In this document: piece by piece, positions 10,469 through 59,244 of the stretch
Position numbering within the stretch: the stretch's first letter is position 1
Layout: every line of letters begins with the position of its first letter
NCBI RefSeq assembly: GCF_001431505.1
Contig: NZ_LDJP01000058.1
Location: 1-64,000 of the forward strand
Length of the DNA: 64,000 nt
Origin: Stenotrophomonas daejeonensis
GTDB lineage: Bacteria; Pseudomonadota; Gammaproteobacteria; Xanthomonadales; Xanthomonadaceae
Direction: 5' to 3'
Notes under the pieces: model-generated
The model's database searches: none
What the model was told of the DNA's origin: nothing
The model's input: only the letters and a program-made list of their open reading frames with translations
Program-made: the position numbers and the translations under genes

Positions 10469-10786
10469 TCAGCCTGACGCCAGCTTCAAGCCGATCACGC
10501 CGGCCACGATCAGCGCCACGCAGGCCAGCCGCGCCGGCGAGGCGCTGTCGTTGAACAGGACGATGCCCAGCACCGCCACGCCCATCGCGCCGATGCCGGT
10601 CCAGATGGCGTAGGCGGTGCCGATCGGGATCTGCTTCATCGCCTGCGTCAGCAGCCACAGGCTGATGCCGGCGGCCACCACGGTGCCGACGCTCGGCCAC
10701 AAACGGGTGAAGCCTTCGCTGTATTTCAGGCCCAGCGCGAAGCCGATCTCGAACAGGCCGGCCAGCAGCAGGTAAACCCAGGGCAT
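10469..10786 (-). CDS. gdx: Guanidinium exporter Gdx (SugE, small multidrug resistance family)
   Basis: A 105 aa SMR protein with four transmembrane helices, the essential E13 in the first helix (LLLAGLFEIGFALGLKY) and the Gdx-subtype motif GTAYAIWTGIG. Gdx proteins form antiparallel dimers that exchange guanidinium for protons; the older name is SugE. Start ATG 10786 has a very strong ribosome-binding site (AAAGGAGG). A guanidine-II riboswitch with terminator lies in its leader, which independently supports guanidinium as substrate rather than the broader drug range of EmrE-type members. Confidence 0.95.
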   Translation of the reverse strand: MPWVYLLLAGLFEIGFALGLKYSEGFTRLWPSVGTVVAAGISLWLLTQAMKQIPIGTAYAIWTGIGAMGVAVLGIVLFNDSASPARLACVALIVAGVIGLKLASG

Positions 10787-10843
10787 CCGATACCTCCTTT
10801 CCTCAACCCCGCGCCGGATGCACGGCCGGTCGCGGGCAATCGC

Positions 10844-10878
10844 AAAAAGAAACGGCCCGATGCTTTCGCACCGGGCCG
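10844..10878 (-). terminator. Riboswitch-controlled terminator in the gdx leader
   Basis: On the minus strand an 11-bp stem (CGGCCCGGTGC/GCATCGGGCCG, one G-T wobble) closes a GAAA loop (10864-10867 region) and is followed by TTTCTTTTT. The first four bases of its 5' arm (10875-10878) are also the 3' arm of riboswitch hairpin P2, so the two folds exclude each other. Confidence 0.85.
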
Positions 10879-10926
10879 CCGTCGGCTGTGGTCCATGCCT
10901 TGCGGCATGGGGCGGGCCGTCCCGCC
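10875..10926 (-). ncRNA. Guanidine-II (mini-ykkC) riboswitch
   Basis: Read on the minus strand there are two hairpins, each with the diagnostic ACGG loop: P1 at 10926-10911 (GGCGGG-ACGG-CCCGCC) and P2 at 10886-10875 (GCCG-ACGG-CGGC). A 24-base linker between them holds its own GCAA-capped hairpin (10893-10910). Paired ACGR loops upstream of an SMR gene define this riboswitch class, in which guanidine promotes loop-loop contact. P2 competes with the terminator just downstream, so ligand binding should allow gdx transcription. Confidence 0.9.
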
Positions 10927-10977
10927 GTGTTTCAGTGGTGCAAGCCTAAGCGCCCGCACACGAACCGCATGTAACCG

Positions 10978-11772
10978 TCACTCGGCCAGGTTGCGGCCGT
11001 GGAACAGCTCCTCGATCTCGCGGCGCAGCAGCGCCTCGATCTTCATGCGCTCCTTGAACGAGAGGTTCTTGGCCTTCTCCTCGAACAGGTACTGGTCCAG
11101 GTCGAAGTCCTTCAGGTGCATCTTGGTGTGGAAGATGTTTTCCTGGTAGACGTTGACGTCGAACATCTCGTAGCGCGACTTGATGTTCTTGGCCAGGAAG
11201 TTCTGGATCGAGTTGATCTTGTGGTCGATGAAGTGCTTCTTGCCCTTCACGTCGCGGGTGAAGCCGCGCACGCGGTAGTCCATGACCACGATGTCCGACT
11301 CCAGGCTCTCGATCAGGTAGTTCAGCGCCTTCAGCGGCGAAATGACGCCGCAGGTGGCCACGTCGATGTCGGCGCGGAACGTGGCGATGCCTTCCTGCGG
11401 GTGCGTCTCCGGATAGGTATGGACGGTGATGTGGCTCTTGTCCATGTGCGCGACCACCGCATCGGAGATCAGCTCCTTGCCGGCGGCCTTCTTGTCGATC
11501 ACCGGTTCCTCGGAGATCAGGATGGTCACCGACGCGCCCTGCGGGTCGTAGTCCTGGCGGGCGACGTTGAGGATGTTGGCGCCGATGATCTCGGCCACAT
11601 CGGTGAGGATCTGCGTGAGACGATCGGCGTTGTATTCCTCGTCGATGTACTCGATGTAACGCTGGCGCTCCTCTTCGGTTCGCGCATAGCAGACGTCATA
11701 GATGTTGAAGCTCAGCGCCTTGGTGAGGTTGTTGAAACCCTGCAACCTCAGGCGAGGCAACGGCTTGACCAC
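10978..11772 (-). CDS. speD: S-adenosylmethionine decarboxylase proenzyme
   Basis: SpeD makes decarboxylated AdoMet, the aminopropyl donor for spermidine. The proenzyme cleaves itself to create a pyruvoyl cofactor from a serine; here S113 in [16 protein letters not shown] is the expected site. At 264 aa it matches the E. coli-type (class 1A) enzyme in length. It is divergent from clp, an order I recall from Xanthomonas genomes. The gdx leader starts just after its stop codon. Confidence 0.95.
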
Positions 11773-58827: not shown

Positions 58828-58934
58828 GGCTGTTCCGTTGCTGCGTTGCGGTCGCGCATTTTACGGTGGTGCGGGCGGGACGCAGGGCCCGCGCCTGCCT
58901 TCGCGGCGCCGATGGCATAGAATGCGCGCACTTT

Positions 58935-59152
58935 CGGGTGACCGGCTGGGACTTCCTCCCGCCGGTTGAAACGGGAAGCCGGTGCCGCGCATTGCTGGAG
59001 TTCCAGCCATCCGCCAGTCCGGCGCTGCCCCCGCAACGGTGAGCAGGACAGCCCAGACACACCGCCACTGTGCATCCATCGCATGGGAAGGCGTCTGGGC
59101 GGAAGCGGCCACGGCCGCTTCGCCTGCAAGCCCGGAGACCGGCCCGGAAGCC
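58935..59152 (+). ncRNA. Cobalamin (AdoCbl) riboswitch
   Basis: Conserved elements appear in order: GGGAAGCCGGTG (58973-58984), GCTGCCCCCGCAACGGT (about 59024-59040), GCCACTG (59064-59070) and the B12 box AAGCCCGGAGACCGGCC (59128-59144). A -10-like TAGAAT at 58918-58923 lies a few bases upstream. The aptamer is followed by the btuB leader. Binding of adenosylcobalamin should reduce btuB expression. Confidence 0.95.
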
Positions 59153-59244
59153 GACTGGTTGCGATGCGGAGGGCATGGCGGCGGCAGTGGCGCCGTGCGC
59201 GCACTCCGTCGTGGCGTCCTCTCCTGGCAACCCCCACCGTCTGT

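Follow-up and report, generated by a model that had tools for sequence, protein, structure and literature searches.

A probable guanidine-II-type riboswitch on a transcription-terminator platform between speD and gdx in Stenotrophomonas daejeonensis and related Xanthomonadaceae

Introduction

In Stenotrophomonas daejeonensis (assembly GCF_001431505.1, contig NZ_LDJP01000058.1) the gene for a predicted guanidinium exporter, gdx/sugE, lies downstream of speD, and the question which this locus raises is whether, and by what means, the RNA between the two genes controls the exporter. An earlier note on this DNA had proposed a guanidine-II riboswitch in which the second of two hairpins overlaps a terminator. 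In the passages of the literature cited here guanidine-II is called an exclusively translational class (PMC9561414), and translational control has been described or proposed in several further reports (PMC12186494, PMC7544219, PMC9094411, PMC5486947, PMC10907184), including one on E. coli (PMC13064478). Published guanidine-II linkers are 7–40 nt long (PMC7544219), and in the docked state the linker has been reported to be well extended (PMC5486947).

Materials and Methods

The window, that is the whole stretch of DNA which was analyzed, comprised 64 kb (positions 1–64,000 of the contig). Both strands were scanned for hairpins with an ACGR loop and a stem of at least four Watson-Crick pairs.

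A covariance model (R2) was built from alignment A1, which contained 25 of the 26 intact-type copies first extracted, the window included; one copy with a long linker was moved to alignment A2, which held 24 S. maltophilia-type copies (L030 was left out, the P1 pattern not being found in it). R2 contains the pairs of P1, the linker and the terminator, while the pairs of P2 were left out. From 114 R2 matches in the family 90 copies were taken; those left out were nine of S. maltophilia type, eleven with E values of 2e-4 or above, two from short contigs belonging to a single genome and two duplicate loci. Of these 90 copies 86 were searched further, four of S. maltophilia type being set aside. 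Alignment A4 (MAFFT) consisted of 89 distinct copies, namely 79 of 82 distinct sequences plus 10 from A1, and the three rows dropped were sequences without gdx, which were also the lowest-scoring among the 86 copies searched. The terminator parser read 84 of the 89 A4 copies, and gdx could be extracted from 85 of them for trees. A speD distance of -104 returned for L060 is a script artefact.

Results

Organization of the locus

On the minus strand speD (11772–10978) is followed by a 191-nt gap and then by gdx/sugE (10786–10469). The features of this region, in the direction of transcription, are listed below.

10978..11772, minus strand: speD, S-adenosylmethionine decarboxylase, the upstream gene (TIGR03331, 472.3 bits)
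10943..10976, minus strand: promoter-like pair GGTTAC (10976–10971) and TAGGCT (10948–10943), 22 nt apart, noted for its shared spacing in other copies
10911..10926, minus strand: P1 hairpin GGCGGG-ACGG-CCCGCC, 6 bp, ACGG loop (sequence and predicted fold)
10893..10910, minus strand: linker hairpin CCATGCC-GCAA-GGCATGG between P1 and P2, 7 bp, GCAA loop (predicted -12.0 kcal/mol)
10887..10892, minus strand: unpaired ACCACA from the linker hairpin to P2 (predicted fold)
10875..10886, minus strand: P2 hairpin GCCG-ACGG-CGGC, 4 bp, ACGG loop (sequence and predicted fold)
10853..10878, minus strand: intrinsic terminator CGGCCCGGTGC-GAAA-GCATCGGGCCG, 11 bp, GAAA loop (predicted fold and terminator scan)
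10844..10852, minus strand: terminator T-tract TTTCTTTTT (sequence)
10793..10797, minus strand: likely Shine-Dalgarno sequence GGAGG of gdx, 77 nt from P2 (sequence)
10469..10786, minus strand: gdx/sugE, predicted SMR-family guanidinium exporter (NF008512, NCBIfam SugE, 134.1 bits, cut-off 126)

The full linker between P1 and P2 spans 10910–10887 (24 nt), and the terminator scan gave 13 pairs at 10851–10880. Bases 10878–10875 are shared, the 3' arm of P2 being the first four bases of the 5' arm of the terminator. The earlier note was thus correct, when read on the minus strand, in the coordinates and counts of its two ACGG-loop hairpins, in a 24-base linker with its own GCAA hairpin and in the arm which P2 shares with an 11-bp terminator. 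Its guanidinium-exporter gene also passed the SugE model, the exporter function being a prediction; the best solved relative of the gdx product was a protein of the small multidrug resistance family, 6wk5 (E 2.3e-29).

Among the 90 copies gdx was found downstream of the element on the same strand in 87, at 100 nt or less in 86 and at 595 nt in one, and the speD C-terminus was present in 86 (tblastn). The adjacency of speD and gdx around the switch was maintained in most copies examined. Elsewhere in the window, on the plus strand at 58919–59161, there is a cobalamin riboswitch of a familiar kind (93 bits, cut-off 31.5).

Chance control

The scan of the window returned eight ACGR hairpins with only one close pair among them, and that pair was P1 and P2 with the overlapping terminator. 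Sixty dinucleotide-preserving shuffles of the window gave one close pair in total and none with a terminator. Terminator-like sites occurred at a mean of 0.9 in shuffles of 1,501 bases, so that the terminator taken alone is an ordinary feature.

Distribution among relatives

The regions upstream of gdx in relatives sorted into clear types. Many Xanthomonadaceae gdx leaders carried P1, the linker hairpin, P2 and the terminator between speD and gdx; several other Proteobacteria and Rhodanobacter-like genera carried two ACGR hairpins right before the start codon, and in these start-codon-adjacent pairs our script found no overlapping terminator.

R2 scored 96.5 bits in the window, itself one of the 25 training copies, and no second match under E 0.2 was found in the genome from which the window comes. 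At an E value of 0.001 or below, R2 matched 109 of 297 genomes in the family, spread over 19 of 54 genera, with S. maltophilia-type and weak matches counted. The order-level search at E 0.01 gave 65 matches in 299, of which the seven outside the family (family f12) all had E values of 5e-4 or worse. At the level of the class Gammaproteobacteria there were 8 matches in 369 at E 0.01, four of them within the family, and no gdx was found in the DNA retrieved around the four weak matches outside it. A protein tree of gdx with 145 rows (85 of terminator type, 48 of ribosome-binding-site type and 12 of the 24 S. maltophilia-type copies) did not reject a single origin of the terminator types (p-AU 0.787, from 104 columns with few supported forks). 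Two copies, L228 and L231, had damaged P1 stems with terminator and gdx intact, possibly as a result of recent decay.

Conservation and covariation

With P1, the linker and P2 taken as one structure, 89.8% of cells were paired and the covariation score was 0.200 against 0.086 in shuffles, with 0 of 500 as high; with P1, the linker and the terminator, 97.9% of cells were paired and the score was 0.317 against 0.152, again with 0 of 500 as high (89 copies each; these shuffles ignore the relatedness of the copies, and the search with R2 favours copies which form the P1, linker and terminator pairs). When the partners were slid by 1–3 columns the paired cells fell to 29.7–50.3% for the P2 structure and to 30.2–42.7% for the terminator structure. 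The pairing of P2 is not a product of the search, since its pairs are absent from R2, with which most copies were found.

Each helix contributed to this result in the 89 copies. P1 was paired in 97.9% of cells with changes on both sides in three of six pairs, the terminator in 98.8% with such changes in six of 11 pairs, and all five counted pairs of the linker hairpin changed on both sides. For P2 only one of six pairs did so, this being the fourth pair (G-C in 45 and A-U in 42 of 89). The two outer pairs of P2 form in only 24 and 37 of the 89 copies, and the conserved P2 is therefore one of 4 bp. The loop of P2 was ACGG in 80 and ACGA in four of the 84 parsed copies, and that of P1 was ACGR in 85 of 89, with ACGT in two and GCGG in two. 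Covariation of both ACGR stems among relatives, the absence of which the earlier note had named as grounds for giving up its reading, was thus present as compensatory changes in the 89 copies.

Two details which that note had called unusual turned out to be normal for the clade. A folded linker was predicted for every one of the 89 copies (median -10.6 kcal/mol, lengths 20–30 nt), and a P2 of exactly 4 bp was the commonest length (46 of 84 parsed copies). We would offer only as a suggestion that the linker hairpin sets the distance between P1 and P2.

The arm shared by P2 and the terminator

The 3' arm of P2 lay wholly inside the 5' arm of the terminator in 83 of the 84 parsed copies. When the fourth base of the shared arm was read together with its two partners, the triples were G-C-G in 43 copies, A-U-G in 36, A-U-A in two and others in three, so that the pairing with the terminator partner was kept in 84 of 84 and that with the P2 partner in 82 of 84. 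On the gdx tree of 85 copies the state of the triple changes at least seven times. A strict test of independent pairs on this tree gave three cases for, none against and two uninformative, too few for significance, and we take it to be well supported, though not proven, that the two structures compete for one arm and exclude each other.

Predicted folding and mechanism

Folding of the growing transcript, a calculation which covers the base pairing of the RNA alone, gave P2 a probability of 0.91–0.96 until the lower arm of the terminator was made, after which it dropped to near 0. In the predicted folds P2 coexists with a terminator of which the upper half, 7 bp, has closed, and it gives way once the final bases of the terminator have been made. 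As P2 shares only the foot of the terminator and stands beside the upper 7 bp, it competes for the foot alone. The terminated fold was better than the P2 fold by 8.7 kcal/mol in the window (8.2 with two more bases) and by a median of 9.7 kcal/mol in 85 copies, a difference so large that a ligand has to work kinetically or make a large contribution.

On the reading which we prefer, P2 would form first when guanidine is absent and would then lose its 3' arm to the far stronger terminator, whose foot that arm forms, and RNA polymerase would halt ahead of gdx. With guanidinium present, docking of the P1 loop with the P2 loop, both ACGR, would keep P2 closed; the foot of the terminator could then not close, the upper hairpin would be left 4 nt from the T-tract, and the polymerase would read through into gdx. 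Guanidine is the presumed ligand by virtue of the loop motif and the gene, and the docking of the loops, with the antitermination that would follow from it, is modelled on guanidine-II structures as described in the passages cited (PMC5486947, PMC9561414).

Rfam models

The Rfam mini-ykkC model (RF01068, Guanidine-II), which the earlier note had put forward as a check, did not accept the element as Guanidine-II: the score was below the gathering score (18.9 bits at E 10, cut-off 32), and the match lay in another register with P1 taken as the second hairpin. Neither RF01068 nor BjrC68 (RF02353) gave a match at E 1 in 11 of 11 relatives of the same architecture or in one S. maltophilia-type copy, in a search of 60,766 bases in which the 18.9 bits of the window would likewise go unlisted. 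Of three ribosome-binding-site-type controls in the same search two passed the RF01068 cut-off; the one that failed has a linker of 57 nt. At least nine weak RF01068 matches (20.4–29.1 bits) overlapped R2 matches, mostly with the same register shift. It is likely that the longer, structured linker is the reason for which RF01068 misses the element.

The best Rfam match of the stretch was BjrC68, which scored 32.3 bits against a cut-off of 39 (E 6e-07 in 221 bases); this identity was rejected, the score being under the cut-off and the 12 related leaders having no match at E 1. GGAM-1 and Guanidine-I (ykkC) were absent among the 10 Rfam matches of the stretch at E 10.

Where transcription starts

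The motif GGTYAY was found before P1 in 33 of 89 copies, the window included. It was followed by TAnnnT in 22 of these 33 copies, which are related rows, and in 21 of them the spacing was exactly 22 nt; in composition-only shuffles of the spacers TAnnnT occurred anywhere in range in 13.6%. From its sequence the GGTYAY/TAnnnT pair looks like a promoter of the element's own, just upstream of P1. A sigma-70 scan did not recognise the pair, nor did it find any promoter between the terminator and gdx.

In 24 of the 89 copies P1 starts 6–18 nt after the speD stop codon. Such a gap leaves no room for a promoter, which points to read-through from speD or to a start inside speD, and gdx in these 24 copies would seem to rely on guanidine-gated passage of the polymerase through the speD terminator. 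In some other copies a strong hairpin stood between speD and P1.

S. maltophilia-type leaders and the second gdx copy

In all 24 copies of A2 the P1 stem pairs, with the loop ACGA in 21, ACGT in two and ACGG in one. These leaders retain the terminator, and their long linker hairpin has a 9-bp outer helix (e.g. L010:1368-1474 and L032:1869-1975). The ACGR loop of P2 was lost in 23 of the 24, being replaced by ACCCA in 14 and by other non-ACGR sequences in nine, and was ACGA in the remaining copy. Covariation within the 24 copies was nil, and conservation there therefore says little.

The leader may be a decayed switch or a single-hairpin one. That a single-hairpin form arose in the S. maltophilia group and still works, one ACGR hairpin sensing guanidine or another ligand, we consider unlikely; in the part of a published survey cited here single-hairpin forms were thought unlikely to be found (PMC9481103).

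A second copy of gdx in the same genus had a pair of ACG-loop hairpins upstream in 19 of 20 stretches (L238–L257). With a strict parser (stem of at least four pairs, loop exactly ACGR) both hairpins were found in six of the 20 stretches, one in 13 and none in one; by eye, 13 of the 20 had an additional A next to the first ACG loop, a hairpin that was missed by the strict parser for this reason. The second-copy leader, guanidine-II-like and of the ribosome-binding-site type, resembles the element in having two ACG-loop hairpins upstream of an exporter paralogue and differs from it in that P2 ends about 19–25 nt before the start codon and adjoins AGGAGG, so close that an overlapping terminator would not fit. 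A second copy that is still switched may be what makes the loss of P2 at the first tolerable.

Discussion

The riboswitch-like element between speD and gdx is real and conserved. We hold it to be most probably a guanidine-II-type riboswitch on a transcription-terminator platform, which would act as an ON switch by antitermination. This agrees with the reading of the earlier note as to a guanidine-II-like aptamer, a terminator and an ON switch, which fits the compensatory stems, the shared-arm triples and the position of gdx in 87 of 90 copies; the part which had to be altered is the blocking of the terminator, which would be confined to its foot.

The element shares with Guanidine-II (RF01068) two G+C-rich ACGR-loop hairpins, joined by a linker, upstream of gdx/sugE. 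It differs in its platform, which is a terminator with the 3' arm of P2 built into it and not a position close to the ribosome-binding site, and in the conserved hairpin of its linker, the linker of the class being described as poorly conserved (PMC9561414, in the part cited). Among the 30 best Rfam Guanidine-II matches in the family none had an overlapping terminator and 29 had a GGAG-like site 7–11 nt after P2, from which it follows that the two platforms are distinct. As in attenuator riboswitches, an aptamer helix and a terminator here share a strand and would exclude each other.

The Guanidine-I (ykkC) aptamer is a different one, and larger. In that class too, as far as the cited passage goes, binding of the ligand takes up part of the terminator stem and raises transcription (PMC5486947). 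Guanidine-IV (GGAM-1) is likewise a guanidine ON switch which works by transcription termination before sugE-type genes, and its authors also propose that outer terminator pairs are kept from forming (PMC7736828). As described in the cited passages, GGAM-1 differs from the element in that it is without conserved ACG trimers (PMC7736828) and has one aptamer loop inside the terminator hairpin (PMC12186494). GGAM-2 to -6 were rejected as candidates because their lineages, as given in the cited part of PMC7736828, do not include Gammaproteobacteria.

Other explanations of the locus have to be weighed against this reading. The sequence might be a plain speD terminator, its ACGR hairpins sensing nothing and gdx being expressed by read-through or from its own promoter. 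Such a terminator lies close behind speD, it would be unremarkable in itself, and the S. maltophilia group does keep the terminator with the ACGR loop of P2 gone in 23 of 24 copies; we nevertheless judge it improbable, as the paired ACGR loops and compensatory stems are kept in 89 copies, the hairpin pair with a terminator arose in none of 60 shuffles, guanidine-II is known for downstream genes of this type and the sigma-70 scan offered no promoter for gdx behind the terminator. An aptamer of the same shape for another guanidino compound, or one of mixed kind, would have a precedent in a guanidine-IV variant with an apparently different ligand (PMC9788692, in the part cited). Both ACGR loops and gdx are features of guanidine-II, however, and the P1 loop is ACGR in 85 of 89, so that we would place this slightly lower still.

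It is very improbable that P1 and P2 govern access to the Shine-Dalgarno sequence, the model given for the class in the passages cited (PMC9561414, PMC12186494, PMC5486947), for P2 ends 77 nt before GGAGG, whereas the distance is 7–11 nt in 29 of the 30 Rfam-type members. Least probable of all, to the point that we give it hardly any weight, is a small RNA of BjrC68 type (RF02353) released from the leader or from the end of speD. A terminated leader would indeed be a short RNA and BjrC68 was the best Rfam match of the stretch, but that match is below its cut-off, is repeated in 0 of 12 related leaders at E 1 and probably rests on the terminator and its tail.

If the guanidine-II-type antitermination reading is right, the guanidine-II class, which the cited passages treat as translational, appears to have a transcriptional branch, and terminator-type members may be mentioned in print elsewhere. 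The branch would be widespread in one family and invisible to the standard Rfam model. It would offer a natural comparison of the same two-hairpin aptamer on two platforms within one family, which the hairpins upstream of the second gdx copy extend to a single genus. With a P2 of 4 bp and a shared terminator foot the system would be very small and well defined, and suited to the question of how docking of a ligand beats a far more stable terminator during transcription. For the organism itself, the adjacency of speD and gdx raises the possibility that polyamine synthesis and guanidine export are connected.
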